This document shows, one piece after another, positions 16,854 through 34,460 of a DNA stretch of 64,000 bases (positions are counted from its first letter, which is position 1; each line of letters begins with the position of its first letter). Under the pieces are notes generated by a model that was given only the letters and a program-made list of their open reading frames with translations, did no database searches and was not told where the DNA came from. The translations under genes and the position numbers were made by a program. The stretch is from Anaerolineae bacterium. Its GTDB lineage: Bacteria; Chloroflexota; Anaerolineae; Aggregatilineales; Aggregatilineaceae. The stretch covers positions 62,001-126,000 of the forward strand of contig JAHDLB010000019.1 in assembly GCA_018432315.1 (NCBI GenBank), in the 5' to 3' direction.

Positions 16854-16997
16854 AAGTATGGTTAAATGCCGAGCGCCGCCCGAAAGGCGTTACGCAGCCA
16901 GGGCGGCACTGCCCGCGCAAGCCGGTGGTCTGGAAGGGCCACACCGCGCCAGAAGGGTGCAAATTGGCGCCCGAAGAACCTCCCTGACGGTCCCGGG
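16854..16997 (-). mobile_element. Remnant of an insertion sequence: transposase 3' end and terminus
   Basis: On the minus strand about 33 codons reading VREVLRAPICTLLARCGP and onward to a stop (TAA) align with the C-terminus of the transposase remnant at 57764-58250 (VEEFLQTPILTPLARSDP). The DNA beyond both stops also matches, ending in GGAAGTRTGGTTAA on the plus strand, which is probably the element's terminal sequence. The match breaks off at about 16997, where Rhs-like sequence begins. Only the 3' end of the element remains. Confidence 0.6.
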
Positions 16998-17006
16998 CAT
17001 GGGCAG

Positions 17007-17300
17007 GTGAACACGTTCGCGTATGATGCCCTAAACCGCCTGCAAACCACCAGCACGTTCGACGGCCAGACCATCACCTATACTTACACCGCGTCCGGCC
17101 AGGTGCAGACCGTCCAGGATGCGCGCGGCAGCGTGAGCTACAGCTATGACTACGCCGCGTTTGGCGACCTGCTGCAGGACATCCCCGATCCGCTTTCGAG
17201 CTACCTCTACACCGGCCAGCGCTTCGACGCTGCCACCGACACATACTATCTGCGTGCCCGCGAGTATGATCCGCGGTTTTCCGCTTCCAACTCGCCCGCT
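17007..17300 (+). pseudogene. Rhs/YD-repeat protein fragment
   Basis: About 95 codons carry typical YD repeats (NTFAYDALNRLQTTSTFDGQ, then ITYTYTASGQVQTV) and the end of an Rhs core: YLYTGQRFDAATDTYYLRAREYDPRF. Rhs cores normally continue into GRFLSxDP and a variable toxin tip; here the match is lost after YDPRF and the rest of the open frame to 17492 is not recognisable. The 5' side is cut off by the IS remnant. This is a residue of a much larger gene, not a working toxin. The frame continues upstream only as IS-derived sequence. Confidence 0.7.
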
Positions 17301-17488
17301 CTCGTGGCTCCGAGCGTTCAAATCGCTGCCCAATCCGCGTGCCTACGATGGTCAACTCTTTTTGCCCAGACTTCGACTTCTTCTAACTCTGGCATTCTTT
17401 CGCTCACAGTCACCTTTTTCCCTGTGAGTTTTCCTTCTATTAGCATAAGTGCGGCTGTCGCACTGGCGCCCCGTGTGATACGAACAGG

Positions 17489-19378
17489 CTAATCCGATTC
17501 GCGCTGCTTCACGGGCTGAAGATAGTCGAAACGCAGATGGCTGGAAGCCTCTCCCCGGCCCATGCGCTTACGTACACCCAGCCAGACGTACACCTGCCCG
17601 CCGTACCAGCGCGTGCGCTGGAAGCTCTGCTTGACGTTAGTACCCGCGCGCAGCACTTCTTCTTCCTCGACGAAGTAGCTTTGCCTGACCGGCTGGTTGA
17701 GGCCCTCGCGCAGCAGATTCGTGCGCGGCTTGATCCGCTCGATCTTGCCCAGCGGGTCACCTTCGATGATGCGCGGCATGGAGCCACGCTGGAGGCGCGT
17801 TTCGCGCAGGCTGCCTTCTTCGTGGGTGGGCACGAATGGGATCCAGTTCTCCGGCACGCTGCTCATGACCTTATAACGCAGGTCCGCCGCTGGCTCGAAG
17901 TCGGGTTCGCCCGGCCCGCCCAGCGCGTCGACGATGCGCCGCAGGTGCCGCAGCGTGTCGCGTGCCGCCTCGCGCCCCGGGGCGCTTTCTCCGCTCGGCA
18001 GCGGGACCAGTTTTTCGATGCCCCACACCATGTTCGCCACTTCGTCGCGGGCAAGCTGCACTTCCTCGATCGGTTTGCCCTCCTGAATCTTGGACACCGA
18101 CGGCACCACAATCAGGCTCAGGTCGGCGGGCAGGCGCTCCGTCCCGGCAATATCCATCGAATACATTGTCCACCGGTTCGGGTCGTCGTCCAGCCCTCTG
18201 CCGGTGGCCGTGATCCAGAAGTTCTCGCCGAACACGTTGCGCACCGACATGCCGCGCAGCCGCGCCAGTGTACCCGCCGGTAGGGTGAAGGGCACCATGT
18301 ACCAGTCGTTGGCGTACACCAGGCCAAATTCGATCAGCAGCAGCTTGTTGATATCGGTCGTATCAGGCTTGATGTCGCCAAAGTTGGTCCGGCCCTCCTC
18401 GAAGGTCCACCAACGCGTATTCGGCATCCCATCGAACTGGACTGGCGTTGGGATGAGCGACCGTTTGATTGGTGCGTCGAACCCTTCCGGCAGTGAAGGT
18501 GCCTCGACCTCGCCGAGCATCTCGGTCTTGTTGTCCACCGAGAAGTTGTACCAGTCGAGGTGGCCGTGATAGTACTCCTCCGCGAGCAGCACCTTTTCGC
18601 CGCCGTCCTGCGGCGCCGATACGGCAAACTGGTACTCGAGCCTGGACGGCTGCCACGCGTCGTTGCCTTCTGGGCCCTGGGGCTGGTAAAATAGCCGGTC
18701 GAACCACGCGACAAAGCGGTCGCCCAGGCTCACCAACTGCGCATGGTCGCTGGGATCGGCTCCCACCGTCACCGGGTGCCGTTCTCTGTCTTCGAGGATA
18801 TCGTCGTACAGTTTTTTGCCGTCGATATGCCGGGTCGCCGTCGCGGCATGCTTGCGCCACGACTGCTGCGCCGCCACGTAGTACACGTCGTCACGGCTGT
18901 CCGGGTCTGGCTGGTGAACCGCGAAGTGCTCGACGTAGCCGCCCTTCAGCGCACCGAAGCCGTGTTTGGTCAGCAGCCTGGCCCAGTAGCGCCCCATGAT
19001 CAGCCGCACGTCGAGCGCAATCTCCAGGTCCCCGGCGGCGAACGGGATCGGGCGCCGTTCGACTTTGGCTTCCAGCGGCACGGAATCGTCGAAGGCTTCT
19101 GCCGCGTGCTGGCCGGGCTGGTACTTGGTCAGCATCGTCTTTTCCATGTACACCTTCGAGGACACCGCCGAGCCCGCGTCGTCGCCCAGAAATTCGCCCA
19201 TCTGCCACTGCTTGGTCAGCATCCACAGGGCGTCACGCACTTCGGCCTTCAAAGCGCGGTCGAAGTCGTGCGTGCGCGGACGAGCCTCCAACCGGTTGAA
19301 GACCGGCAGCATGGAAATAATCAGGTCTTTGCTCAAAAACTGCTGGAGCTGCGCGGTGCTTAGCTGCTGACTACTCAT
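17489..19378 (-). CDS. Large conserved protein of unknown function, last gene of five-gene giant operon
   Basis: This protein of 629 residues has no signal peptide and no membrane segment. The N-terminal third contains DLIISMLPVFNRLEARPRT near residue 18 and ALWMLTKQWQMGEFLGDDAG near residue 50, tryptophan-rich blocks that look strongly conserved. The C-terminus has GTNVKQSFQRTRWYGGQVYVWLGVRKR. I do not recognise a domain of known function. Its start overlaps the end of the 1885-residue gene by eight bases, so it is translated with that gene. It is the last gene of the operon; only the Rhs fragment on the other strand follows. A structural or scaffold role alongside the other giant proteins is possible but unproven. 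Confidence 0.85.
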   Translation of the reverse strand: MSSQQLSTAQLQQFLSKDLIISMLPVFNRLEARPRTHDFDRALKAEVRDALWMLTKQWQMGEFLGDDAGSAVSSKVYMEKTMLTKYQPGQHAAEAFDDSVPLEAKVERRPIPFAAGDLEIALDVRLIMGRYWARLLTKHGFGALKGGYVEHFAVHQPDPDSRDDVYYVAAQQSWRKHAATATRHIDGKKLYDDILEDRERHPVTVGADPSDHAQLVSLGDRFVAWFDRLFYQPQGPEGNDAWQPSRLEYQFAVSAPQDGGEKVLLAEEYYHGHLDWYNFSVDNKTEMLGEVEAPSLPEGFDAPIKRSLIPTPVQFDGMPNTRWWTFEEGRTNFGDIKPDTTDINKLLLIEFGLVYANDWYMVPFTLPAGTLARLRGMSVRNVFGENFWITATGRGLDDDPNRWTMYSMDIAGTERLPADLSLIVVPSVSKIQEGKPIEEVQLARDEVANMVWGIEKLVPLPSGESAPGREAARDTLRHLRRIVDALGGPGEPDFEPAADLRYKVMSSVPENWIPFVPTHEEGSLRETRLQRGSMPRIIEGDPLGKIERIKPRTNLLREGLNQPVRQSYFVEEEEVLRAGTNVKQSFQRTRWYGGQVYVWLGVRKRMGRGEASSHLRFDYLQPVKQRESD

Positions 19379-22300
19379 TGGCGATCACCTCTGAGAACGA
19401 CACCTTGTTGTTCAGCGCGAGATTCAGGCTGGCCGTCAGTGGCAGCGGGCTGGCCAGCGACACGATGGGTGGCAGGAAAAGGCTGTAGGCGGTGCCATCG
19501 ACGTGGTCGGGTTCCACCGCGCGTTTCTTGGCCATATCCAGCGTGGCGTGCAGCGTGTTCACCACGTCTGCCCAGCGCCACCGCCCCGTGAACTCGGTCG
19601 GCGTGACCAGCAGCAGGACCTGGGGCGGCTCCGTGTTGGGCTGATCGTAGTGGAAGGTCAGGCCAATCGTCTCGTCGCGCGACGGGATCACTTCGGTCCA
19701 CTCGTCGAGCAGCAGGCCGCACTGCGGCGCGGTCGGGTCGAACGGCGCGTGGTAGATGGTGGTGAACAGCAGCTTGTCCTCATCGATGCTAAACGGCTCG
19801 TCGGTGCCCGGCTTCTTGTCCGGGAACTGCATGCCGAGCCAGAAATCGTCTTCGCGATACGGGAACTGCGAGGGCACCAGCGCCAGCGTCGGGCCGTCGA
19901 AGCCCTCGACGTGCACCAGCGTATTCTCCAGGTGGTGCATCTTTTCCCGAACGCGGCCCATGCCGTAAAGCCAGTCGTCCAGCGGAAAGTCGATGTCCAG
20001 GTCGGTGCGCAGGTAGCGCAAGCTGTGCTCCGCTGCAAGCACGGTGTTCTGCCACTCGGTGGCCTGGTCCGGGTCCAGCGTGAAGCTGGGCACCATCACG
20101 AAGTCATCCCCGAAGATCGACTTTCCAGCGCTGCGCACCAGCTCCACCTGTGCGCGCCGGTCGCTCGTGGCTGGCACGCTCGCCAGCAGATCCCCCGCGG
20201 TGGTCGCGCCGCTGTCGATGGCCTTGTCCAGATTCTGTGCGTGGACGAGCAGGTCACCGGCCAGGGTCGCCACCTGCTTTAGCTCGTCCTCGATGTCGAT
20301 GCCCACCACGTCGAACGGCGGCAGTTCGGCGGCCAGCGCCTGAATCGCCTGGATCAGGTCGGTCAGGTTGTGGATGTTCAGAATGGACGGCATGGTGACC
20401 GTCAGGAGCTGCTCGAACGGCTCGGCCCGCGTGTCGCGAATCTGGGTGAAGTACTCGGCGGGTGACGGCGGCAGCGGCAGCGAAATGGTGCTCGAAACCG
20501 TTTCCTCGGCGCGGCGCAAGATATCGTACAGTATCGAGTCTGGCGCGCTGCCTTCCGCCGCGGTGTACTCGGCCTCCAACAGCGCGTAGTCGGCCAGGCG
20601 CACGTTCCAGCGCGCGATCAGGTCCTGGACTTTGGTGCGCAGCCGGGTGAACATGGCCTGCTGCCACTGGACCATGAAGCCGGTGCCCGCGTGCGGCAGC
20701 CCGTAGCGCCCCACCTCGCTCAGGATCGCGCCGAGATCGGCCAGCAGCGGGTCGAGCGCGCCGACGATGGCGTCCACGTCGTCCGCCGCGATGAGGGCCG
20801 ACAGGTCGGCAATGTAGTCGGCCAGCCCGTTCGTCCGGGTGCGGATGTCGTCCAGCCCGTCGATGATAGGCTGCAGCCGCGCGGGATCGAGGCTGACCGT
20901 CTGTTCCTGCTCCTTGGCCGCCTCGTTCGGCAGCCGGGCGTCCGGCGCGGTGAGCGCCTTCGATCTCAGCAGCAGCGCGCGCAGGCTGGCAACCAGAGAA
21001 GTCATTTCGAACACGCTGAACTGCCCGGTCCCCAGCGCGCGCGTGTATTCGATGGTGATGGGCAGGTCCAGGCGCGGCGTGTGAATGGTCTGGATATGGT
21101 ACACGATGCGGTCATCGAGGGTGGACATGGCCTGCTCGCTGTCGATGTCGAGCAGGTACAGCAGGTCGATGTGGGCCAGCCCCAGGTCGTCCATCGTGAC
21201 CGGCACTTCCTGGTCCACATCGCCCACCCGGTTGACGTAGCGCACCACGCACTCGATCTGGTCCGTGCGCGGCATGATCTCGCTCAGCCAGTCGTGCATG
21301 GCAGGCTCGGCAACCATACGCGGCGTCACCCCCGGATCGCCCAAATCAAAGCTCACGTCCGCGCGGAATTGCAGCGCCACCCGGTGCGTGAGCTGGATAC
21401 CGCTGCGCGGCGTCTTGATCACGTCCGGCGTGGGCGGAAAGTTGCCCTTGCTGTAGGTGTCCAGTGTGGCCGCCGCACGCTCGTAGTTGCCCAGCACGAC
21501 CTGATGCACGCTCTCGGCCAGCGCGAGATCGGCCACGGCATCGTTCACGTCGATCAGCTTCCGCACTTCCTGGTTGATCGCGGCTTCTTTGTCCGGCGCG
21601 GGTGGCAAATCGAGGCCGAAAGGATACGTTTTGTTGCCCGTCTTTTCGATGTGTTCGAGAAAGGCCACGCCGTCCATGACGTTGCTGGCTTCGATCTGGT
21701 CGATCGATTCGTATTCGGGATCGTCCGGGCCGGGCGCGGTGTCTTTGAACTTCTTGGCGGAGAGCGGGAATTCGTTGCGCAGGTCGTAGATGAAGGCGTC
21801 CACTTCCACATCGGTGCGGTCGTGCAGGCCGCGCTCGAAGCGGTAGCCCAGCAGCGCCGACAGGCTCTGCCCGCCCTGGATTCCCTCGATGATCTGCAGC
21901 GCCGTCCGCACCCGCTCCGAGGACAGCTTGATCTTCAGGGCTTCTTTGTCCTCCGGATCCTCATTGGACAGGTGCCCGTTGCGCAGCACGGCGGCGGTCA
22001 CGGCGTGATTCTGCGACGGGGCCAGGATATAACCCGCGTTGCTCTTATCCTCGACCAGGTCGCCGTCGGGGTTGAAGACCTTCTCCAACTCGTCCGGCAG
22101 CTCGACCGGCTCCAGCACCTTGTTCTCGGGCCGCAGCTCTTCCAGCCAGCCGTAGGCCCCAACGTACAGGCCGCGCACCGGCGGGCGTTCATCGCGCGAC
22201 ACATGCAGCCTGCGCATGGTTTCGAGCTGCAAGTGCAGAAAGCCGAGCATCCAGGCGTCGTAACGGTACGATACCGTGTCGATGTGTTCCATCAGCAGGC

Positions 22301-25028
22301 GCTCGAGCGCGGCGGTCGGCACGTTCTCCAACACCCGCAGCCCGGCCAGCACGTCCCGGAACGCCGCGGCTTCGTCGAGTGTGTCGATGTGCCGGGCGAT
22401 GTAGTCGCCCAACAGCAGGTCCGGATCGTCCGTGATCCGCACGTCGGCTTTGTACAGGTGCTTCCAGCGGCTCTCGGTTTCGTTATCGGCCTCGATGTGG
22501 ATGAAGTCCGGCTCGACATACGCCAACTGCACCTGCTGCGGAGTCATGATCTCGCGGTTCAGGTGCAGCTTGAGGCTGGTATCGATGTAGCTCAGGTCGA
22601 GCGCGTGATACATCAGCAGGTACAACAGCGCCGTCGGCGGCGTGTCGTCGATGAAGCCATCCTGCAGGCGCAGCCGGTCGTGCGAATGCTCCGCCGCTTC
22701 GATCAACCACCCGATGTAGTTCTTTTCGTCCTCGACGGTGTAGATTCCAATCGGCTCCACCTCGCTGTTCGGGACGCGGTCGATCCGGTCGCCACGCAGA
22801 ATCCAGGCGTTCTCGAAGAACGACTTGGTGAATATATCCGGGGCCGGGTGCTCGGCGTCGATGGTGTAGCCGTGCGCCGCCAGCAGGCTGGTCGGCGTGA
22901 GGTAGCTGCTCGCGTAGTAGCCGAACACCGCTTCGTGCGGCAGCCCGACGAGGTTATAGATGTTGTGGACCTGCTTGACGGTGTTGGCGTAGCGCTTGTA
23001 GACCTCGACCGAATCGGGATGCAAACCGATGATGTCCAGCAGAATCTGGTGCGGATCGCCTTCGGGCTGCCCCACGTGCGCCACCCTCCGCCGCAGGTTT
23101 TCCCACGTCTGGTCCATGCCCAGCAGGATTTCGTACAGCTTGAGCAGAAAACGGTTGCCCGAAACCAGCATCGCGGCGCTGGCCAGCATGTCGTGCCCCT
23201 GTGGGCGCGGTGCGAACCACCGCATGCGCGTGTAGTCGGTCGCGGGCAGGATGCCGTAGGGCTGCCTGCCGACGCGGATGGCCGGAATGTTGCCGCGCCC
23301 GCTGACATAGCGCGTGAAGAACAGCCGCACCGTCTCGATGGCCGCCGGTTCGAAAACCGGGTTCATCATGCTGTCCATGAAGTGGCCCATCGTCGCGGGC
23401 CACAGTGCCCGCTGCATGGCCCTGCCCTCGGCGATGTCCGTGCTGTAGTAGTTCTCGACCGCCCGGAGCCGGGCCGGATCGATGCCCAACATGTCGGCCA
23501 GCCACCGCCCGTCGGTCCTGGCGAACCAGTCGGTCGGGTCGGGTTCGGACGCGCCCTCGCCGAAGTAGATATCGAAACTGTCGTCGGGATCGTGCCGCCA
23601 GCTATAGCCCGCGCCGTCGTCCTCGGTGTTGTTCGTCGGTGTGCCCTGCTTGAGGATCGCCAGCCCCTTGCGGCTGAACTGGTGCTGCTCGAACAGCTCC
23701 TCGACCAGCGCCGCGCCGCGGTCGCGGTCCGCGCTCAGCTTGATGCCTAGCACGAACACGCGGTCGAAGCCGTTCTTCGCCTGTTCGGGCGACAGGTCGA
23801 TGCGGAAGCCCATACCCTTCGCCACCGCCTCGTCGAAGTCGAACATCCACCGCATGTTTTCGGCAATGATCAGGTCGCCTTCCTGAATGCTCGGATCGGC
23901 CTCCGCGTCTTCCTGGGTTGCCAGCCGGAAGTCCTCGCCCTGCTCGGCTGCCGGGTCCGGCCCCAGGATCAATTTGGGCGGCACGAGGTTGCCAAGCTGC
24001 GGCGGCAGCGCCAGATCATCACCCTGGAAGGCCAGGAACACGAACCGCTCCGGCAGGATGCTGCTGGTGGGCGGCTGCGACCAGGCGTGCAGCTTGGTAT
24101 CCAGGTCGTCCGCGCTGGCAAAAAGCACGAATTCCACGCGCACGACCGTCTCGTCACGCGTGCGCCCTGCCGGGGGCGGATCGCCGAGGTTGGCGGGCTG
24201 GTAATCCCTGACCAACTCTGCCGCACGCTCGGCGCTGACCACCGCCAGCAGGTCGTCCCATGCCTCGTCCAGGCGCGCCTGGTCCTGGCCGGCCTGCCAG
24301 ACTGCCCCCCAGTAGGCCACGACCGCGCCCAGTTCCGGCGCGACTAGCGCGGTCTCGGTGCCAATCGCCAGAATCACTTCGCCCTCGGCCTTTTCGGGTT
24401 CGTCGGGCAGGTTGAGCGGCACGTAGCGGTCGCCGGTGATCAGCCAGTAGGCGCGCCCCGGACCATGTGCCGCCGCCAGCGCGCGCCATGCCCCGCGCAA
24501 GCCCGCCTCGTCGCCGCCTGCCGCCCAGCGCGCCAGCCAGTAGGCACGTGCGTTACGGACCTCTGTCTCCGACAGGTCGCTTTCGAACGTGTTGATCGCG
24601 ATGTCGTCCGGGAACACGCGCACCCACAACTGATCGACCATCGCGTCGTCGCGCAATACTTTTTTGAAGCGCGTTTCCAGCCGCAGCGGGAACAAGAGGA
24701 TCGGGCAATCGTCTTCGAAATGGGCGATGTTCTCGACGGGGTCCGTGAATCGGATGAACTCGCGCAGCCGCGCCCACTCGGCGCTCACGGCGTGGGCATA
24801 GTTCGCTCGGCCCGTCCGCACAGCTTCGGCAGAGCGGCGCTCCAACGCCTCGAGCCGGGCCAGTTGCGGGGCGTTTTCGCGCGCGTCGATGGCGATTTTT
24901 CGCAGCAGCTCGCCCTTCTGGCGCCCGAGGCTGCTCGCCCGCTGCCGCGCGGTCTTCAGGTCGCGCTGCTGCTTCTCACTGCCGGACCTGGCCCGGCTCA
25001 CCTGCTTCTGGAAGTCTTCAAAGCCCAT
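19371..25028 (-). CDS. Giant protein (1885 residues) of unknown function
   Basis: The N-terminal 75 residues are rich in Lys, Arg, Gln and Glu and probably form a coiled coil (EDFQKQVSRARSGSEKQQRD). A block with LLFPLRLETRF near residue 112 and QLWVRVFPDDIAINTFE near 133 follows, then a long central region including FFTRYVSGRGNIPAIRVGRQ and a motif near residue 1180 (QVVLGNYERAAATLDTYSKG followed by TPRSGIQLTHRV). Around residues 1400-1700 helical sequence dominates. No signal peptide or membrane helix is visible. Composition and codon use look native, and the whole frame is intact over 5.6 kb, so it is under selection. The start lies five bases after the stop of the preceding gene. I recognise no enzyme motif and assign no function. 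Confidence 0.87.
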   Translation of the reverse strand: MGFEDFQKQVSRARSGSEKQQRDLKTARQRASSLGRQKGELLRKIAIDARENAPQLARLEALERRSAEAVRTGRANYAHAVSAEWARLREFIRFTDPVENIAHFEDDCPILLFPLRLETRFKKVLRDDAMVDQLWVRVFPDDIAINTFESDLSETEVRNARAYWLARWAAGGDEAGLRGAWRALAAAHGPGRAYWLITGDRYVPLNLPDEPEKAEGEVILAIGTETALVAPELGAVVAYWGAVWQAGQDQARLDEAWDDLLAVVSAERAAELVRDYQPANLGDPPPAGRTRDETVVRVEFVLFASADDLDTKLHAWSQPPTSSILPERFVFLAFQGDDLALPPQLGNLVPPKLILGPDPAAEQGEDFRLATQEDAEADPSIQEGDLIIAENMRWMFDFDEAVAKGMGFRIDLSPEQAKNGFDRVFVLGIKLSADRDRGAALVEELFEQHQFSRKGLAILKQGTPTNNTEDDGAGYSWRHDPDDSFDIYFGEGASEPDPTDWFARTDGRWLADMLGIDPARLRAVENYYSTDIAEGRAMQRALWPATMGHFMDSMMNPVFEPAAIETVRLFFTRYVSGRGNIPAIRVGRQPYGILPATDYTRMRWFAPRPQGHDMLASAAMLVSGNRFLLKLYEILLGMDQTWENLRRRVAHVGQPEGDPHQILLDIIGLHPDSVEVYKRYANTVKQVHNIYNLVGLPHEAVFGYYASSYLTPTSLLAAHGYTIDAEHPAPDIFTKSFFENAWILRGDRIDRVPNSEVEPIGIYTVEDEKNYIGWLIEAAEHSHDRLRLQDGFIDDTPPTALLYLLMYHALDLSYIDTSLKLHLNREIMTPQQVQLAYVEPDFIHIEADNETESRWKHLYKADVRITDDPDLLLGDYIARHIDTLDEAAAFRDVLAGLRVLENVPTAALERLLMEHIDTVSYRYDAWMLGFLHLQLETMRRLHVSRDERPPVRGLYVGAYGWLEELRPENKVLEPVELPDELEKVFNPDGDLVEDKSNAGYILAPSQNHAVTAAVLRNGHLSNEDPEDKEALKIKLSSERVRTALQIIEGIQGGQSLSALLGYRFERGLHDRTDVEVDAFIYDLRNEFPLSAKKFKDTAPGPDDPEYESIDQIEASNVMDGVAFLEHIEKTGNKTYPFGLDLPPAPDKEAAINQEVRKLIDVNDAVADLALAESVHQVVLGNYERAAATLDTYSKGNFPPTPDVIKTPRSGIQLTHRVALQFRADVSFDLGDPGVTPRMVAEPAMHDWLSEIMPRTDQIECVVRYVNRVGDVDQEVPVTMDDLGLAHIDLLYLLDIDSEQAMSTLDDRIVYHIQTIHTPRLDLPITIEYTRALGTGQFSVFEMTSLVASLRALLLRSKALTAPDARLPNEAAKEQEQTVSLDPARLQPIIDGLDDIRTRTNGLADYIADLSALIAADDVDAIVGALDPLLADLGAILSEVGRYGLPHAGTGFMVQWQQAMFTRLRTKVQDLIARWNVRLADYALLEAEYTAAEGSAPDSILYDILRRAEETVSSTISLPLPPSPAEYFTQIRDTRAEPFEQLLTVTMPSILNIHNLTDLIQAIQALAAELPPFDVVGIDIEDELKQVATLAGDLLVHAQNLDKAIDSGATTAGDLLASVPATSDRRAQVELVRSAGKSIFGDDFVMVPSFTLDPDQATEWQNTVLAAEHSLRYLRTDLDIDFPLDDWLYGMGRVREKMHHLENTLVHVEGFDGPTLALVPSQFPYREDDFWLGMQFPDKKPGTDEPFSIDEDKLLFTTIYHAPFDPTAPQCGLLLDEWTEVIPSRDETIGLTFHYDQPNTEPPQVLLLVTPTEFTGRWRWADVVNTLHATLDMAKKRAVEPDHVDGTAYSLFLPPIVSLASPLPLTASLNLALNNKVSFSEVIANE

Positions 25029-25033
25029 GTGTG

Positions 25034-28000
25034 CTAGCCCTCGGTTCCGTTACTGCATTCATCCGGCAGCATCTCGGCGGCGTGCACGCCGATCAGCACC
25101 GGCACCTGGTAGAGGATGTACGCCAGTTCGGCGGAGTCGATGGCGCTGCGCCACGTCACGAAGGAGTCTTCCTTACGCTGCTGTTCCGCGTCGTTGTCCG
25201 GCGTACCGGGGTCCGGCACGGTGATCGCGCGCGTCCCGTCGATCTTCAGGAACATGCCCGCTTCCACGTCCTCCACGACGTGCGACCATGCCAGCTCGTT
25301 CCAGGCAGTGACCGTCGTCGCGGCGAAGTCGCTTGCGTCGCCTGGCACGTCCAGCCCGAAGCGCGGCTCGCCCGGGCGCTCCTTGATCACAAAGAACCAG
25401 CCCGGCTCGTCGTTTTCGTCCTCGCCGCTGCCACCCTTGGCCTCTATGACGTCCAGGTCGAACCCGAAGAAATAGATGTCCGGCTCGATCTTCGCTTCGT
25501 ACAGCGGCGTCTTGATGACGACTTCCTCCGGCGCGCTGTCGTCGAATTCGCGCGGCTCGGTCAGGATGCGGTTGCCTTCGTCGTCGGTCGGCCACCTGGC
25601 GCGGTGCGCGTACACGACCGCCGTTGGGTATTTCTTGAGCAGCTCGCCCCGGATGACCAGCACGACTTCGTTTTCCTTTTCGCCGCCTTCCTCGCGGTGA
25701 TCGTGGTCGCCCAGGTCGGAGGCCCGCGGCCAGCGGTGCAGGGGCGGGATATCGCGCAGCTTCTCGCGCAGGGCCTCGGCGTCCAGACCTTCCGTGTTCA
25801 GGTAACTGCTTACGTCCCAGAACTGCCGGAAGTAGCTGCCACGTTGGTCGGTCGGGTATTCGCGCCACAGCAGCTCGCGCGCGAATTCGTGGTTGAGGCC
25901 GACCATGTACGACTCGATGAAGCGCTGGTTGGTCTCCAGCAGCGTGATCGAGTTCGGCTCGATCAAGTGGATGTTGGGCACAAAACGGTCTTCCGAGGTG
26001 TCCAGCAGCGGCTGGTACATCGGCACGTCGATCTCGGGATAGGCCATCGCCTCGACGAACTTCTCCTGGTCGATGGCGTCGACGATGCGCGGCGGGAGGT
26101 GAATCTGCCCCAGCACGTAGCGCGGGATGGTCACGTCCGGATTGAGTCCCACGACCGCCGCATCCACCATCAACCCGATATCCAGTTTGGGATAAACCGG
26201 CGGCTGGCCCGCTGCGGCGCTGCGCTGCACGAAATCGAAGTTGTCCGTCAGCGCCCGCTTGAAACGAACCGCTTCGCGGCTGTCGGCAGGGCCTGTGCTC
26301 GGCACGAACGTGTCGCCAAACTCGGTCACGCGGAAGTCCGGCGTGCGGCGGAAACCGCGCACCGCGCCGGGCGTCTGGTGCTCCGGCAGGATCGCTTCCG
26401 CGTTCTGGCCCGCCTTGATCAGCCTGCGTAGGAACAAGAACCCGGCGATCCCTATCAGCGCCGCGAGCACCAGGGCGGGCAGCACCAGCACAATCACCGC
26501 GATGGTGGCGATCGTTGAGAGCGAACCAAGACTTGCCAGGACCACCAACAGCAGCAGGACGGCCACAATGACCAGCACCACCGGCAGGTACAGCAGCCAG
26601 CGATAGCGCAGCAGCAGGTCCAGCACCGGGGTGGGCAGCGTGTCGGGCTTGGCGACGTCGGCGATATCTTCATTGGTGACAAGATCGTCGGGCACCTCGC
26701 GGGGCCGCGCGGGCGTCACTTCGCCCTCGTTCACGCGGCGGATCAGGCTGTCCCGCCCGCCGACGGTATCGAGCTTCAGCCCCCTGGCGAGGCGTCCGCG
26801 TGGGCGCACGATGCGCCGTGTCGGGGCCGCGATCAGGGCCTGCGGCACGCGGCTGGTGCTCACGTAGTGGAACACGGTCTTTCCGTTAGCCAGGATGCGC
26901 TTTTGCACAGGCGTCGTCAGGGCCAGGTAGCGCTCGGTCGCAATTCCCGCTTGCGGCGTGATGTTCGCCTTGTACCAGACCCGGCTGGTCAGCGTCGCCA
27001 GTTGGGCCCAGCGCAGGCGGCGGTTGGCCTCGATCACGTCGCCCACCTGCTCCCAGGCCGCGTCCATGTACGCCTCCTGATTGGCCTGGACGACCTCCGT
27101 GCCGAAGTTGGCGGCGGTGCGCCAGCGTGGGTCCAGGTTCAGGTCGTGCACCCAGTTTTGATCGTTCGGCGCGGGCGATCCATCGTCCTGCGTCAGCAAG
27201 CGCGACGTGAGCGCGTGCCAGCGCCCGTACAGCGGCGGCGTGATGAGCGGATCGGGATCGCCCTCGTCCTCGTCCTCGATGTTCAGCCCGGAGTCGTCGT
27301 GCGCGTCGGCGGTCGTCTTGCGCTTGTATTCGTCCGCCAGGTTGATAAAGGCCGCGAGATCCGTCTGAAAGCGGTGGGGATAGCTGTCGTACCAGACGTC
27401 ATAGTTTAGGTACTCGGTCGCCTCGGCGGGATTGAGGCAGGCCGTCGGCACTTGCAGCGCGCCACCCAGGCGCAGGATGCCGTGCAGGCGTTCGTCCAGG
27501 ATGCCGTCGATGTTCGAGCCGGGGTCCTGCACGTCGATATCGCGCCGCCCAACGCGGCTGTCCGGGAGCACGGGCTTCAGCAGGCGCACGAGGTATTCGA
27601 AATCCCCGATTGAACTGGTGCGGAAATACCAGCGGTAGTAATAGGGAAAACTCGCCGGTTCGGGCCGCCCGCTATAGTCGGTCCACGCGATCGAATTCGC
27701 GCTGAAACCGGTCACTGCGCCGGGGTCTTTCCCCAACCCGGCCAGCCGCCCGGCCTCGAAGGTTGGCACCACGAAGGCGTGATAGGGCGTGTTCTCGTCC
27801 AGCTTGCGCGGGCACATGATACGCGCATAGGCCAGGTCCGGGTTCTGGGCCAGGACGTTTTTGAACTGGCCGATGAAGGCCGTCTCGTTCGTCGAGATCG
27901 GATCGTCGCCGCTGCCGACGATATTCTTGTTGATGTGGACGTGTGCCCAGGCCCACAGGTCCGCCTCTGGCGGAAAGACGGCAGCGGCCCCGACCGTGTC

Positions 28001-28438
28001 CTTGAGCGTGAAGTAGTTCAACGGGCGGTCGAGGATGTTCTGGCCGTCGTCGAATTCATCCTCGGCCAGCACGATGAGCGTCAGCCAGGGCACGAGCCGG
28101 TTGCCGTCCGGGGCGCTTGGCGTGTAGCGCCAGGGGAAGTCTTCGTCGTAAAACTCGATGTAGGGCAGGTAGTTGGGCTCGAAGTTCGTGATCCAGTTGC
28201 GCGGCTCGGTCTTGACGATGGCCCGCGCGTCGATGCCCACGATATCGCCCGGCCCGTAGAGTTCGATCTGCTTTTCGACCGCCTGGGCGGGCGGATCGGT
28301 CAGGCCCGTGCCGGCGATATCCAGCGTTACCGTGATCTGGCCGCGCCGGGCGTCCGCGTCCGGCGGCGCTTCGACCTGGTTGGCCAGCCCCTGCCGCAGC
28401 CAGGGCAGAAACGAATAGGTGCCGATTTCTTCGCTCAT
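25034..28438 (-). CDS. Giant protein (1134 residues) with central membrane-spanning pair, unknown function
   Basis: The N-terminus (TYSFLPWLRQGLANQVEAPP) lacks a signal peptide. Two long hydrophobic stretches at about residues 612-672 (LLYLPVVLVIVAVLLLLVVLASL and, after a short polar link, TIAVIVLVLPALVLAALIGIAGF) predict a membrane hairpin in the middle of the protein, splitting it into two large soluble parts of about 600 and 460 residues. Both are acidic and rich in Trp and Tyr. It overlaps the DUF6603-like gene by four bases (ATGA). The membrane hairpin makes it the likely anchor of any complex formed by the five products; this is inference. No known family is recognised. Confidence 0.87.
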   Translation of the reverse strand: MSEEIGTYSFLPWLRQGLANQVEAPPDADARRGQITVTLDIAGTGLTDPPAQAVEKQIELYGPGDIVGIDARAIVKTEPRNWITNFEPNYLPYIEFYDEDFPWRYTPSAPDGNRLVPWLTLIVLAEDEFDDGQNILDRPLNYFTLKDTVGAAAVFPPEADLWAWAHVHINKNIVGSGDDPISTNETAFIGQFKNVLAQNPDLAYARIMCPRKLDENTPYHAFVVPTFEAGRLAGLGKDPGAVTGFSANSIAWTDYSGRPEPASFPYYYRWYFRTSSIGDFEYLVRLLKPVLPDSRVGRRDIDVQDPGSNIDGILDERLHGILRLGGALQVPTACLNPAEATEYLNYDVWYDSYPHRFQTDLAAFINLADEYKRKTTADAHDDSGLNIEDEDEGDPDPLITPPLYGRWHALTSRLLTQDDGSPAPNDQNWVHDLNLDPRWRTAANFGTEVVQANQEAYMDAAWEQVGDVIEANRRLRWAQLATLTSRVWYKANITPQAGIATERYLALTTPVQKRILANGKTVFHYVSTSRVPQALIAAPTRRIVRPRGRLARGLKLDTVGGRDSLIRRVNEGEVTPARPREVPDDLVTNEDIADVAKPDTLPTPVLDLLLRYRWLLYLPVVLVIVAVLLLLVVLASLGSLSTIATIAVIVLVLPALVLAALIGIAGFLFLRRLIKAGQNAEAILPEHQTPGAVRGFRRTPDFRVTEFGDTFVPSTGPADSREAVRFKRALTDNFDFVQRSAAAGQPPVYPKLDIGLMVDAAVVGLNPDVTIPRYVLGQIHLPPRIVDAIDQEKFVEAMAYPEIDVPMYQPLLDTSEDRFVPNIHLIEPNSITLLETNQRFIESYMVGLNHEFARELLWREYPTDQRGSYFRQFWDVSSYLNTEGLDAEALREKLRDIPPLHRWPRASDLGDHDHREEGGEKENEVVLVIRGELLKKYPTAVVYAHRARWPTDDEGNRILTEPREFDDSAPEEVVIKTPLYEAKIEPDIYFFGFDLDVIEAKGGSGEDENDEPGWFFVIKERPGEPRFGLDVPGDASDFAATTVTAWNELAWSHVVEDVEAGMFLKIDGTRAITVPDPGTPDNDAEQQRKEDSFVTWRSAIDSAELAYILYQVPVLIGVHAAEMLPDECSNGTEG

Positions 28439-31400
28439 ACGTCTGTCTGCACTTCCACTTGTGGGATGACGTGTAACTCGCGCGCCAGGTTGGCATCACC
28501 GGCCACCTGCTGCTGCATGTAATCCTGCGCCTGGGCCATGCTCGTGAAATTCATCGCCTCGCCGTTGAAGGCCGTGTTGTCGCTCGTGAATGCGACCCCG
28601 TAGAGCGTATGTCCCACTTCCACCTTGTCGGCAAAGGGCACGCGCATCGTCTGCTGCTTGTACGACAGCACCGAATGCGACACCGAGTTGCCGTTGAGGA
28701 AGAGGTTGAACAATGAGCCGAACCACGTGAAGAACGGCCTGACGAAGCGCTTGAAGTTGGTATCGATGATGATCTGCTCGTAGCGGACCACGCGCTTGAC
28801 GGCTACCGGGGCATGGTATTGCTCGCCCGCGACCGACAGCTCCACGCCGCCCTTCATCGGCTCGAACGATTTGGCGTTCAGCAGCTCGCTGTCGGACTTG
28901 TCCAGGTACTGGCCGACGGCGAAGGATTCGTTGACCTTGCCTCGCTCCTCGATGCCGGAGGTGGTGACCGTGATATCGAACCGGTTGGCGTCGTCCGGTT
29001 TCTGATTGCCTACCTTGGCGATGGTGATGTCCAGCGGGACGGCACGCTGGCTGATCTTGAGGCTGCCGACCGGGTGCAGGACAAATTCCTCCGACCCTTC
29101 GTCGGCGCTGCGCAGCGACACCAATAGCTGGTTGCCGGCAGGCAGCACGGCCAGCCAGTTTTCGAGCTTTTCGTATTCGGCCACTAGCAGCGGCATGACG
29201 CTGATCGGCGGCAGCGTGGTGTCTTCCTCGCTGCCCCACGTATGGCTGAAGTCCACGTCGATGTCGAAGAACAGCAGCGAGATCGACCCGGTGCCCTCCA
29301 CGTGCCAGGGCGTCGGCCCTTCGAGCGCGCCGCGCATCCGCACGCTGAACAGCCCCACGCCAAACACCTTGACCGATAGCGAGGCCGAGATGGTGATGAT
29401 GAAGTAGAACGGGGAGAAGCGGAACAGCGCGTCGAAGGCCAGGTGCCCGTCGATGTTGAACGCATCGAGACCAAAGTAGACCTCGACGGACGCCCCGAAC
29501 TGCACCGAGTTCGACGTGACCGCGAAGTAGCCCTCGACCCGGATCCGCGCGAAGTCCGTGTTCAGGATACTGATCGCGATCCGTGCCACGGCCCCGAATG
29601 GCAGCGGCGGCGGGTTGAATGCCGGGTGGAAACCGCCCACGCTGACGACGAAACTGGCGTCGTCGCCCCAGCCGACCAGCAGGCCCATCTCGCCTTCGAG
29701 CGTGATGTACAGCACGCGTGACTCGAACAGCGCCGCAAAGAACCACAGCCGGCTCTTGTCGAACTCGATCGCGCCGATGAAATTGACCTGGATCACGATC
29801 AGGGCCGCGTCTTCGTCCGGCAGCACGACCTTCAGTACGCCCAGGATAGCGATGTTGCCGGGAATCTCGATGATGATGCCCAGCGAGACTGTCACCAGGT
29901 TGGGCGTGCCCCACCCGATCTTGACCATTGGCCCGATCAGGAACGTGTCGGCCTGCACCGGGAAGTAATTCTTCAGGTCGCTGATGATGCGCGGCGCGTT
30001 GGCGACCACGTCCTCAGGGAACATGATGCTGTTGATCCCGCCATCGCGGATGCCGCTCGCGATCGCCTCGAGGCGCATGGTGCGATTGAGGCCCAGCAGG
30101 CCGCCAACGCCGCTCAGCGTGAAGCCCAGGCCAAGCTGGATCGGCGAGCCAAATTCGGCGGTGATGATGATCAGCAGCGAGAAGCCCTTCGAGCCGTCCG
30201 GCATGCGCGTCGTAATCAGCCCGACGGCCTTGACGCTGACGATCCCGCTCAGGTCCAGTTCGAGGATACCCGCGTATTCTTCCTTCTCGAAGTCGAAGTA
30301 GAGGTATCCGCCACCCTTGACGACTCCGGCATCGATCGCGATACCGACCCCGTTGGGCGGCTTGAAGCCCAGGCTGATGTCGAACGGCCCGGCGTTGCCC
30401 TCTTCGAAGACCGTGTTGACCGCGAGGCCGATGCCCTCGACCACCAGCTGCAGTGGTCCCAGGTCGCCGGAGACGTCCGCGCCCAGCTCGAGCACGGCCT
30501 TGGGCTGCGGATCGTCCGGGACATTCAGCCGGATCGTCATGCCGTTGATCGCGATCGGGCCAAGCGTCAGGTGCGGGTTGAGTGCGATTTCAAAGCCCCC
30601 GCTGCCCCGGAAGTGCGCCCCCGTCCGGCTGGACACGTCCAGCCCCAGTGAGAGGTCAATCCTGGTCTGCCCATCGCCCAGAATCGTATTGAGGAAGCCA
30701 TCGCCCTCTCCCGCCGCGAGGACCAGCGCCAGTTCTTTCAGCTCGGCGCTAAACACAACTTCCAGTTCGCCATCGACCAGGTTGGTCCCCAGTCCGACGA
30801 GGAAGCCTTGCAGCTCCAGGCGCGTGCTGCCCGGGCTGCCCAGCAGCAGCGCCGGATCGCTCGGATGGAAATCAAAATCGATCCCCAGCTTGACCGAGGG
30901 CAGCGCTTCGCCCTCTTTGAACGGGTAGCTGACCGTCACCTCGTCGGGCCGCAGCAGAATGCCAAACTGCGAGGCGATGTCCGTTCCCGCCCGTATGACG
31001 AGGTCGATGTCCTGCGCGAGGCGAAGTGTGAACGGGAATTCCTCGGGGATCTGAGGCTGGATGATCAGGCCGGGCAGTTTGCCACCGCCGCCCTGCAGTT
31101 CCATGATGCTGAACGCCGCTTCGTGGGTCTCGCCGTCGATTTCGATGTAAAAGAACGGCACCTTGAGCATGGAGGGGGGTTCGTCCAGCCCGGCCTCCGC
31201 CTCGTGGAAAGCACCGGCCAGCAGCTCATCCGCCTCCCCGACAACGACCGGGAAACGCAGCGCAAAGAACAGCTCCGCCACGTGTTGCAGCAGAAGCAGT
31301 GTGTTGAGGTCGGGCGTGCCCCAGCCGTACACGCGTGCGGGCAGCGTTTGGGGTTCGGAGATGATTTTCGGAATCTCGTCCCACTTGAAGCGCGTGCGGA

Positions 31401-31860
31401 TGTGGCCTGCCTTTTGGGCCGTCGCAGCGACGTTCTCGACCTCAATCACGTTCAGGATCGACAGCAGGTTGTAGGCGGCGGGCAGTTGGGCAGCCAGGTA
31501 ATCGGTCAGCAGCAGCTCAAACAGGCGTTCGCCGATCTCGGCCAGGAAGGCTCCCGCATCGACCCCCGGCGGGGCCACACTGATACCCTGGATCGCCACA
31601 AAAGCGTCTTTGGCTTTCAGCAGCACGTCCAGAATTTCTTGCGGCTCGGGTTCATCGGCCAGTGCTTCGGCGGCCCGCACCGCGCCCACGACTGCCGCAC
31701 CGAGATCGATGTACTCCGGCGGCAGGCCCGTCGTGTTCCAGCCAAGCCGCAGCATGAAGGCCCGAAACGTATCCTCGCTGCTGACGGCCCGTACCAGCGG
31801 CTCCATCACGCCCGTCAGGTGACGGGCCACGAGCTCCAGGGTATCGCGCTCATCGCTCAT
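28435..31860 (-). CDS. Giant beta-rich protein (1141 residues), DUF6603-like
   Basis: After a helical N-terminal region of about 200 residues, the sequence consists of many alternating hydrophobic/polar strands (for example ALIVIQVNFIGAIEFDKSRL and ESRVLYITLEGEMGLLVGWG), which suggests a long beta-sheet or groove-like fold. The stretch VVSVGGFHPAFNPPPLPF and the general pattern resemble the uncharacterised DUF6603 family; this is from memory and should be checked by profile search. No signal peptide is seen. Start and stop each overlap the neighbouring genes by four bases, so it is translationally coupled on both sides. Long amphipathic beta proteins often contact membranes or lipids, but nothing here proves such a role. 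Confidence 0.85.
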   Translation of the reverse strand: MSDERDTLELVARHLTGVMEPLVRAVSSEDTFRAFMLRLGWNTTGLPPEYIDLGAAVVGAVRAAEALADEPEPQEILDVLLKAKDAFVAIQGISVAPPGVDAGAFLAEIGERLFELLLTDYLAAQLPAAYNLLSILNVIEVENVAATAQKAGHIRTRFKWDEIPKIISEPQTLPARVYGWGTPDLNTLLLLQHVAELFFALRFPVVVGEADELLAGAFHEAEAGLDEPPSMLKVPFFYIEIDGETHEAAFSIMELQGGGGKLPGLIIQPQIPEEFPFTLRLAQDIDLVIRAGTDIASQFGILLRPDEVTVSYPFKEGEALPSVKLGIDFDFHPSDPALLLGSPGSTRLELQGFLVGLGTNLVDGELEVVFSAELKELALVLAAGEGDGFLNTILGDGQTRIDLSLGLDVSSRTGAHFRGSGGFEIALNPHLTLGPIAINGMTIRLNVPDDPQPKAVLELGADVSGDLGPLQLVVEGIGLAVNTVFEEGNAGPFDISLGFKPPNGVGIAIDAGVVKGGGYLYFDFEKEEYAGILELDLSGIVSVKAVGLITTRMPDGSKGFSLLIIITAEFGSPIQLGLGFTLSGVGGLLGLNRTMRLEAIASGIRDGGINSIMFPEDVVANAPRIISDLKNYFPVQADTFLIGPMVKIGWGTPNLVTVSLGIIIEIPGNIAILGVLKVVLPDEDAALIVIQVNFIGAIEFDKSRLWFFAALFESRVLYITLEGEMGLLVGWGDDASFVVSVGGFHPAFNPPPLPFGAVARIAISILNTDFARIRVEGYFAVTSNSVQFGASVEVYFGLDAFNIDGHLAFDALFRFSPFYFIITISASLSVKVFGVGLFSVRMRGALEGPTPWHVEGTGSISLLFFDIDVDFSHTWGSEEDTTLPPISVMPLLVAEYEKLENWLAVLPAGNQLLVSLRSADEGSEEFVLHPVGSLKISQRAVPLDITIAKVGNQKPDDANRFDITVTTSGIEERGKVNESFAVGQYLDKSDSELLNAKSFEPMKGGVELSVAGEQYHAPVAVKRVVRYEQIIIDTNFKRFVRPFFTWFGSLFNLFLNGNSVSHSVLSYKQQTMRVPFADKVEVGHTLYGVAFTSDNTAFNGEAMNFTSMAQAQDYMQQQVAGDANLARELHVIPQVEVQTDV

Positions 31861-34460
31861 GTCTGCGGATAAATCTCCTCGTAATCACGGTCGATGAGGA
31901 AGTGTTTGTAGGGGTCGATGATGTCTACCAGGATGTAACGGCACACGGCGCAAAACTCTTTGCCGTCGTCGTCCGAGTTGCGCATGATGCAGCTTCCGGT
32001 CGGGTGATACACGCCACAGTCGAACCCCCTGCCGCCCGTGAACAGACCTACGATCCGGTTCTTGTTCTTGTAGCAGAATGGCAGGTCCACGGTCAGTTTC
32101 ACGGGATTCTGGATGTCGTTCGGATCGTGCACGCACATCTCGGCCCGGTCGGGATCGATGTTCAACGCGCGGTTGCGAGCGGTGATGTGGTCCTTGATGT
32201 TCTTGGCGATCAACTCGGAATAGGGATACGTCGTGGCGTTGAAGACCGAATCCCTGGCTTTCACCGGCAGGTAGACGATGGACCCTTCCGGGAACTCTGC
32301 AGCATCGGCGTTATTGAAGGTGTGGCCGCTCGCCGCCTCGACGACGATGAAGGCTTCCGGCGTGCCGCCCGCTGTCTGATCCGTCGCATCCGTCACCTGC
32401 TTGATTTCGAGCAGGTCGCTGATCAGCCCGTTACGCGTCCCTGGGTCCGGCGGCAGCGGGTCTGGAAAGTCACGCTTGCGCAGCAGGACCTGGTTGCCGA
32501 CGGCGAACTGGTTGGCCTGGCCTAACACGAGCGGAATCTTGAAGCCACTCCCCGAAGGCGTGATCGCTCCGCTCAGGACGGCAGCCTTATGGATGCGGGG
32601 CCAGCGCCACTTGATCCTATCGCCGTCAAGCTGGTTGGTCGCCGGGTCTTCGATGTCCGAGTGTTTCTGAAGATTGCCATAGAAGGCGTCGATGGTCTGC
32701 GTTTGGGGCATCTCGCCCTTTTCGTTGTACTCGTCGCCGAGGCCGAACGAGTGGGCTATTTCGTGGCAGCCCCGGATCAGGCGCGAATGGGTGATGTCGT
32801 GGGTGATCTTTCCGGTCAAGTCCACCTGGTACGTCGGTTTGCCGGTAACCGGTCGGCCTGGAATCCACCTCCGTTGTTCCACGTTCATCGCGATGTAGCC
32901 GCGCCCGTAATTGACGCCGCGATCCCATCGCGCCGACGAAAGGAAGAAGACCAGCGGGTGACTGTTCGGGCGGCTGCCGGTGGTCGGTTGCGCCCAGACT
33001 TCCCCCATCGAAATTCCATTGCCATCGACCAACCGGCTCAGAAACGGATCGATCCCGCCGACAAATGTGTCCGAGCCGATAGTCTCGCGGTCGGACCGTT
33101 TCATACGGTACGGGTGAAAGCCGACCATCAAGGTGTTGCTCTTTTCGCTGGCGGAGGGGTACTCGCCGTAGGCCAGCCCAAAGACCGTATCAACCTCTTC
33201 CAGAAAGGTGCGCTTCGCCAGCTTGCGCCAATACTTCACGGTCGAGGCGCTGATCTTGTCGTGGTCGATGCCGTCCACGATCTCGTCCCAGTAGTCGCGG
33301 ATGTCGCCCACGTCCAGCCCGGCCTGGGCGGGTACGGGCAGGCCGACGGTGTAGATCACATTCGCCAGCCCCCAGTTGCCATCCCCGGAGGGCTTCTCTG
33401 GATCGGGATAGACGAACAGCCTGACGGTCCCATCCGATTCTGTTTCGATGTTCCCGCTCGAATCCTGGTTGGGATACACTTCGCACAGCACCGAAATACC
33501 ATGATTGTCGCTCGGCACGAAGGCGCGGAAGTAGTTCATGGAGGTCGAGAGAATGTCGAAGGGCCGCGTGATCTGGCTCCGTTTCATCAGGCCGAGCAGG
33601 CTGCGTACCTGGGCCTCAAAAGCGGGCTGATCCTCGGCCTTGTAGCCGTCGCACAGAAAGAGGAAGTTTGGCACGACCTCGGGATTGATGGTGCCGGGCC
33701 ACGTGTCCTGAATCTGGACCGTCTCAGCAACGATCGGGGCTTCGTCGGACCACGTATCCGCAAACCGAATCTGCCCCGTCGCCTTAATCTCAGGCGGATT
33801 CGGACTGAGAAAGTCCTCCAGGTCGGGCGGCAGCACGGCTTCGACATCGACGGGCGGCGTACTGGCATTGTTGCCAGTGTCAATCGTGATCTCGCCAATC
33901 CCGTTGAAGTTTGCGGTAGGGCGCCAGATAATGTTCGGGTGGTGGGTGATGTCGCCGACAGTGTCGTCGTCGAACAGGGCGCGCACGCTGAAGCGCACTT
34001 CCGTCTGCTCCGGACGCGGCCTTCCAGTTGGACGCACGGTGAGCACGGGCGGCGTCAGCCACGCCGACATGACCTTGTTGTGCAGATGGACGCGGATGGT
34101 GGTTTCGTAGGTTTTGCCATCGCTTGAATCTTCGGCGCGCGCGTGCAGGATGAAGTTGTGGATGACAGGATCGGGCGTGGGCGGTGCATCGACCTCGACG
34201 GTGCCCGTCTCCGTGTCGATGCGAATGCCAAATCCGGTGCACTGCGGGGGCGTGGTCGTGACGTCGACCGTGTGTTTGAAAGAAGGAAAAAACTCAAGCG
34301 TTACGTCGGCGTTGGAAGCCAGGTAGGTGGCCGCGTCGACGGTTGAGCCGTTTGGCCTGGTAAATTCCAGTCCATCGCGCACGTTGAGGCGGTGGTTGCC
34401 GCGCAGCAGGTGGATATCGTACCCTTCACCGTCTTTCCAATCCATGTCTCTGATCGGCAT
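31857..34460 (-). CDS. Zinc metallopeptidase, M64 (IgA-peptidase-like), first gene of giant operon
   Basis: This 867-residue protein opens the five-gene operon. The zinc site is HEIAHSFGLGDEY, with His566, Glu567 and His570, and Asp576/Glu577 close behind, as in family M64. The C-terminus contains CIMRNSDDDGKEFCAVC, the cysteine-containing block that also occurs near the end of M64 domains. The first 270 residues are beta-rich and may be Ig-like domains. The middle includes NFLFLCDGYKAEDQPAFEAQ, matching the start of the M64 catalytic domain (about residues 285-400). Unlike secreted M64 peptidases, it has no signal peptide at this start; a GGTGAG lies seven bases upstream of the ATG. It may process or release a partner encoded in the operon, which is inference. 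Confidence 0.85.
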   Translation of the reverse strand: MPIRDMDWKDGEGYDIHLLRGNHRLNVRDGLEFTRPNGSTVDAATYLASNADVTLEFFPSFKHTVDVTTTPPQCTGFGIRIDTETGTVEVDAPPTPDPVIHNFILHARAEDSSDGKTYETTIRVHLHNKVMSAWLTPPVLTVRPTGRPRPEQTEVRFSVRALFDDDTVGDITHHPNIIWRPTANFNGIGEITIDTGNNASTPPVDVEAVLPPDLEDFLSPNPPEIKATGQIRFADTWSDEAPIVAETVQIQDTWPGTINPEVVPNFLFLCDGYKAEDQPAFEAQVRSLLGLMKRSQITRPFDILSTSMNYFRAFVPSDNHGISVLCEVYPNQDSSGNIETESDGTVRLFVYPDPEKPSGDGNWGLANVIYTVGLPVPAQAGLDVGDIRDYWDEIVDGIDHDKISASTVKYWRKLAKRTFLEEVDTVFGLAYGEYPSASEKSNTLMVGFHPYRMKRSDRETIGSDTFVGGIDPFLSRLVDGNGISMGEVWAQPTTGSRPNSHPLVFFLSSARWDRGVNYGRGYIAMNVEQRRWIPGRPVTGKPTYQVDLTGKITHDITHSRLIRGCHEIAHSFGLGDEYNEKGEMPQTQTIDAFYGNLQKHSDIEDPATNQLDGDRIKWRWPRIHKAAVLSGAITPSGSGFKIPLVLGQANQFAVGNQVLLRKRDFPDPLPPDPGTRNGLISDLLEIKQVTDATDQTAGGTPEAFIVVEAASGHTFNNADAAEFPEGSIVYLPVKARDSVFNATTYPYSELIAKNIKDHITARNRALNIDPDRAEMCVHDPNDIQNPVKLTVDLPFCYKNKNRIVGLFTGGRGFDCGVYHPTGSCIMRNSDDDGKEFCAVCRYILVDIIDPYKHFLIDRDYEEIYPQT

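Follow-up and report, generated by a model that had tools for sequence, protein, structure and literature searches.

The window analyzed here is a 64,000-nucleotide stretch of a contig from an Anaerolineae bacterium (JAHDLB010000019.1), part of a 5.7 Mb genome. It carries an operon of five giant genes. Whereas comparative genomics indicates that genes 2-5 are inherited as one unit, gene 1 is the predicted current occupant of an interchangeable enzyme slot. All five open reading frames (ORFs) start with ATG, lie on the minus strand and are intact. From gene 1 to gene 5 the junctions are a 4-bp overlap, a second 4-bp overlap, a 5-bp gap and an 8-bp overlap. The ORF check reproduced the coordinates, sizes and junctions given in a preliminary description of this DNA, and a hydrophobicity test found no N-terminal signal in any of the five proteins, in agreement with its statement that signal peptides are absent. 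The features of the operon are:

31857..34460, minus strand: gene 1, slot gene, leaderless M64-type zinc peptidase of 867 amino acids with a long N-terminal extension (Pfam PF09471)
32727..32765, minus strand: zinc-binding motif HEIAHSFGLGDEY, gene 1 residues 566-578, an HExxH zinc site with DEY continuation
28435..31860, minus strand: gene 2, core, DUF6603 protein of 1141 amino acids; N-terminus helical, followed in the model by about 38 amphipathic beta strands (PF20248)
28891..30573, minus strand: DUF6603 domain proper, gene 2 residues 430-990, from the Pfam profile match
25034..28438, minus strand: gene 3, core, 1134 amino acids, no known family in Pfam, NCBIfam, PHROGs, PADLOC and PDB profile searches
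26423..26605, minus strand: membrane-hairpin segment, gene 3 residues 612-672, restricted to some lineages
19371..25028, minus strand: gene 4, core, 1885 amino acids, no known family; likely helical-bundle or coiled-coil regions at about residues 1-95 and 1366-1605
17489..19378, minus strand: gene 5, core, 629 amino acids, well conserved, no known family or fold match (alignment and AlphaFold2 (AF2) model)

Conservation and distribution of the core

Relatives of gene 4 were sought in 84,980 species genomes; at least 430 were confirmed, and 80 of the loci were kept for analysis. These 80 belong to eleven bacterial phyla: Actinomycetota (27), Bacteroidota (19), Pseudomonadota (14) and Chloroflexota (7), the remainder being from Acidobacteriota, Cyanobacteriota, Myxococcota, Bacillota, Chlorobiota, Planctomycetota and Vulcanimicrobiota. 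With tblastn, gene 4 matches were found on plasmids of Streptomyces, Rhizobium, Gemmatirosa and four haloarchaea, each with DUF6603 and genes 3, 4 and 5 in the same order. Order and strand of genes 2-5 are identical in 77 of the 77 retrieved loci that hold all four genes. Core junctions are mostly overlaps or gaps of less than 60 bp; in Actinomycetota the spacing of genes 2 and 3 is often wider. Rhizobium and Halobellus have genes 3 and 4 broken into pieces, with the order retained.

Genes 3, 4 and 5 also occur in an all-or-none manner: the same 8 of 101 relatives carry them, the exception being a 55-residue scrap of gene 4 in genome G063. The probability that two such sets of eight coincide by chance is about 5e-12. 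DUF6603 was present in six of these eight genomes, the two without it, G012 and G060, being fragmented assemblies. Because genome G080 has DUF6603 fragments without genes 3-5, the domain occurs also outside the system, or in a broken one. A phylum-wide sample gave a gene-5 match in 5 of 400 genomes. The preliminary description had taken the five genes as one unit; the neighborhood survey upholds this for genes 2-5, which are obligate companions, and not for gene 1, which is not fixed.

The gene-4 tree (FastTree) groups sequences across phyla, joining Nitrosomonas with Paenibacillus and a planctomycete with an anaerolinean. This suggests that the core has moved laterally between phyla, with the reservation that some of these joins may be binning errors in metagenome-assembled genomes (MAGs). 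No viral relatives were found in two IMG/VR scans. A viral origin was rejected, since the only 'phage' record, MT835531.1 (loci L037 and L146; filed as an unverified gut bacteriophage), looks like a piece of an actinobacterial chromosome. This record carries WhiB, LexA, ComEC and BTAD-nSTAND genes in addition to the core.

The enzyme slot and its occupants

Gene 1 is predicted to encode an M64-type peptidase, as first noticed from its catalytic motif, HEIAHSFGLGDEY; this assignment was confirmed by a match to PF09471 (40.2 bits in two stretches, cut-off 26 bits, E 3e-10). It shares with peptidase family M64 (PF09471; PDB 3p1v, 4df9) the HExxH...DEY zinc site and the C-terminal part of the family profile, and matches to the M64 sequences in the PDB were marginal (E 0.13 and 0.43). 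Gene 1 differs from that family in lacking a signal peptide, in its long N-terminal extension and in its position, a slot that other enzymes fill in relatives. Motifs equivalent to that of gene 1 occur in the M64 slot proteins of loci L068, L078, L111, L114 and L116.

Across loci, a same-strand gene upstream of gene 2 is usual, and it can be of many kinds. Among 72 slot-region proteins, 11 matched S8, 4 matched M64 and 6 matched Trypsin_2, with 31 having a GDSG motif when trypsin-like proteins are counted more broadly. Other occupants are PLD-like (L113, G066), PhoD-like (L038, G007, G280), tyrosinase (L104), glyoxal-oxidase-like (L077) and several unclassified proteins. The trypsin-like slot proteins carry NAL1-type domains, and since 22 of 29 show H and D motifs ahead of GDSG in a simple pattern test, most look catalytically complete. 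An N-terminal hydrophobic signal was absent from all 42 slot proteins whose start is intact.

Two side observations concern the trypsin-type genes. Examples such as L120:1703-3199 match the domains NAL1_N and Nal1_C of plant NARROW LEAF 1, and may represent a bacterial relative of this plant protease. The Nitrosomonas slots (L045:751-1623, L060:767-1627, L062:751-1623 and L099:649-1521) contain tandem trypsin-like genes, of which the upstream copy, 286-290 amino acids long, lacks the C-terminal domain described below.

The gene-4 tree requires at least 11 switches of slot type among the three named protease families, and 26 when all others are counted. Sister loci can have unrelated slot genes: the window has an M64 peptidase where its relative L042 has an unclassified protein of 395 amino acids, and Phormidium has a trypsin where another cyanobacterium has a subtilase. 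Because non-proteases also fill the slot, its enzyme is unlikely to be needed for processing of the core. Of the two roles initially suggested for the peptidase, processing or effector component, obligate processing is therefore disfavored, and that of effector or cargo is preferred.

A C-terminal domain shared by unrelated proteases

When the profile of the trypsin slot family is aligned with that of the subtilisin slot family, the match covers only about 120 C-terminal residues (hhalign 98%, E 2.5e-13), within a common domain of about 140 residues. With an iterated model, this domain was found in all 22 trypsin-labelled slot genes and in the subtilases of L057, L061, L063, L064 and L085. About half of the subtilisin-type occupants have it, and it is missing from those of the PLD and PhoD types. 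In 115 genomes, all 20 matches lie beside a core (4 in the 101 relatives and 16 in 14 further genomes). The L120 protein, which was examined residue by residue, has no Pfam match over this domain, and no convincing match was found in the PDB. Since two unrelated protease folds share a domain that is confined to one operon position, it is probably a docking or loading tag for the predicted complex.

Properties of the core proteins

The earlier view of gene 2 as a long amphipathic, DUF6603-like beta protein proved correct. It is a clear member of DUF6603 (452.5 bits over residues 430-990, curated cut-off 27 bits, E 2.3e-135), and its beta amphipathicity is very strong (beta moment z = 7.9 versus shuffled sequences). 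DUF6603 is a domain of unknown function, and the name is silent on the other three core genes and the slot. The AF2 model (predicted local distance difference test (pLDDT) 79, predicted TM-score (pTM) 0.47) is a long antiparallel meander. Foldseek ranked LptD, a Deinococcus S-layer complex, ushers and ApoB100 as similar, with poor superpositions; the best E value, 5e-6 with LptD, comes with a TM-score below 0.35. VIA-align gave Z values up to 13.7 at a root-mean-square deviation (rmsd) of 11-13 Å. No Sec signal was detected, as a hydrophobic N-terminus is missing in the window copy and in 72 of 73 relatives. Because of this, and because some hosts have no outer membrane, a resident outer-membrane barrel is unlikely; judging from the model, gene 2 may possibly be a membrane-active or hydrophobic-groove protein.

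Genes 3, 4 and 5 gave nothing above cut-off in Pfam, NCBIfam, PHROGs and PADLOC, and their profiles, built from 39-50 relatives each, found no relative in the PDB. The three proteins called unknowns at the outset thus belong to no characterized family covered by these searches. Their relatives are annotated by NCBI as hypothetical, apart from names based on inserts (lamin tail, VCBS repeat, BGTF surface domain). Matches of genes 2 and 4 to designed bundles in the PDB sequence search were discarded as generic helical likeness. No homology was found among the core proteins themselves, and N-terminal signals number 0-1 per core family.

The hairpin noted at residues 612-672 of gene 3 is present, and it occurs in nearly all Bacteroidota, Pseudomonadota, Cyanobacteriota and Chloroflexota copies. 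It was found in only 2 of 24 Actinomycetota copies, in neither of 2 from Nannocystis and in no haloarchaeal copy. Since most Actinomycetota copies lack it, the hairpin is not an essential anchor, and the membrane-anchor role originally assigned to the 1134-residue protein does not hold in general; it is at best lineage-specific. For gene 5, the AF2 model has a pLDDT of 80. A fold search against the PDB and BFVD found nothing below E 0.001 and only Z values below 5, although the lack of a match does not prove the fold to be new. In the model, the conserved residues 18-64 and 316-356 are of low confidence, as would be expected if they become ordered only against partners.

Several relatives carry additional domains. 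Actinobacterial gene 2 ends in a Kelch propeller (L102:780-6750 and L118:918-5561), and a Streptomyces copy of gene 3 has an FG-GAP repeat. In haloarchaeal plasmid copies (L035, L038 and L039), gene 5 has lamin-tail domains (LTD) and gene 4 is enlarged, with the annotation 'BGTF surface domain' and, in L035, a decapeptide repeat. These inserts are of a surface type and fit an external role better. In L102 an extra Kelch gene lies between genes 2 and 3.

Genomic context

Nothing unusual flanks the operon: one side has ABC transporters and LacI regulators, and the other has an ABC-2 exporter, a regulator of the MalT/LuxR type, and FAD/Fe-S and MTHFR-like genes. Across other loci, there is no conserved gene downstream of gene 5. 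No RNA families were found in the window. Among the matches listed, the nearest named relative is L042, a Chloroflexota MAG contig, in which gene 4 is 68-69% identical and gene 5 74%.

Interpretation of the system

We propose, with a probability of roughly 0.45, that the products of genes 2-5 form a scaffold of four proteins bearing an exchangeable enzyme, which is probably used extracellularly. The architecture, i.e., the unity of the core, the swapping, the tag and the lack of signals, is well supported by sequence comparison; assembly, docking, exit, target and mode of action we infer. The four giant proteins would come together in the cytoplasm as a single complex, to which the slot enzyme is bound. 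The C-terminal domain would hold the trypsin-type occupants and about half of those of the subtilisin type, and other contacts, if any, would hold the M64, PLD and PhoD occupants. The complex would then be released from the cell or displayed on it, like other leaderless mega-complexes, with the amphipathic beta protein of gene 2 meeting a membrane or another hydrophobic surface. The slot enzyme would act on an external target, the cargo in this bacterium being the M64-type peptidase.

Several observations weigh against this proposal. The C-terminal domain was found neither in gene 1 of the window nor in any other M64 slot protein. The operon offers no way out of the cell, since it is linked to no gene for lysis, a holin or secretion, and conservation does not extend past gene 5. 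The distribution of slot types on the gene-4 tree shows some clustering (1 of 200 shuffles was as low), so swapping appears frequent and not free. The barrel-like matches of the gene 2 model have rmsd values of 8-13 Å and low TM-scores. Finally, Kelch, FG-GAP and LTD domains are found inside cells too.

Extracellular contractile injection systems are giant leaderless complexes with cargo and are known in some of the same phyla. In contrast to these, the operon has no sheath, tube, baseplate or AAA+ gene, nor do such genes recur in the flanks. The preliminary description's exclusion of a standard contractile or type VI system also agrees with the scan of the window genes, in which no sheath, tube, baseplate or secretion ATPase/AAA+ was found, and with the lack of a second conserved gene set beside the core loci. 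A precedent for the layout is offered by Tc toxin complexes, in which the giant proteins are leaderless and variable cargo is combined with a scaffold; the Yersinia Tc toxin is described as a leaderless giant complex released by lysis (PMC10847046, PMC10847048). The likeness is one of layout only: the core has no RHS-repeat shell or TcA-like domain, and no sequence relation was found for the four core families. Assignment as a Tc complex was rejected, as genes 3-5 have no Pfam or NCBIfam match above cut-off and the sole RHS piece is a separate, convergent ORF (16866-17492, plus strand). This ORF of 208 amino acids matches RHS repeat and Rhs-core, overlaps gene 5 by 4 bp and looks like an RHS remnant. 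The more specific claim, of a novel leaderless delivery machine of bacteria and haloarchaea, unrelated to contractile, Tc and type VI secretion systems, with a scaffold of four proteins taking on an exchangeable hydrolase or oxidase, often via the docking domain, and exporting it to an external target, is put forward more tentatively.

The strongest competing explanation is an intracellular conflict or suicide system: on sensing infection or damage, the core would set the slot enzyme loose within the producer, as proposed for VMAP/iSTAND ternary systems. These systems have a conserved core and exchange variable effectors, including trypsin-like and subtilisin-like peptidases, a combination that is their hallmark (PMC7159879). 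Leaderless proteases and PLD are usual effectors there, and the patchy distribution and signs of inter-phylum transfer also match. However, the vWA, MoxR and iSTAND domains of their core are absent from genes 1-5 in Pfam and NCBIfam scans, the core has no NTPase, nucleotide cyclase or TIR either, and none of the five genes has a PADLOC match. Tyrosinase and glyoxal-oxidase-like occupants, together with the surface-type inserts, better fit an external role, and we consider the conflict system less likely.

More doubtful is an exoenzyme platform bound to the surface or matrix, in which a fixed scaffold outside the cell would present a hydrolase or oxidase for feeding and there would be no target cell. 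The hosts are free-living, the slot is filled by hydrolases and oxidases, haloarchaeal copies have surface-type inserts and the gene-3 hairpin occurs in many lineages, all as such a platform would have it. Yet no component has a signal peptide, and tagged slot enzymes number only one or two per genome with none dispersed, whereas cellulosome-like scaffolds serve many enzymes. Least probable is a carrier of lipids or hydrophobic compounds, in which gene 2 forms an ApoB-like or bridge-like hydrophobic beta-groove and the slot enzyme modifies the load: the strong beta amphipathicity agrees with it, as do weak hits to LptD, ApoB100 and other structures in Foldseek, but proteases dominate the slot, and a barrel and a groove are indistinguishable at a pTM of 0.47.

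A literature search across 5.4 million papers found no mention of the DUF6603 domain and no description of a giant-protein cluster or of a variable-effector cluster like this one, its coverage being partial and an unindexed account possible. What is known is a DUF name for one core gene and ordinary enzyme names for slot genes; no account of the complete system was found. Relatives of gene 4 occur at no fewer than 430 loci of sequenced species, within a 14 kb block that, beyond one DUF, is nameless in the searched databases. A rigid core, a swappable enzyme and a system-specific tag are what a machine with cargo would look like. If the proposed scaffold is real, it would represent a delivery or display principle common to bacteria and archaea, and the tag makes this principle directly testable.
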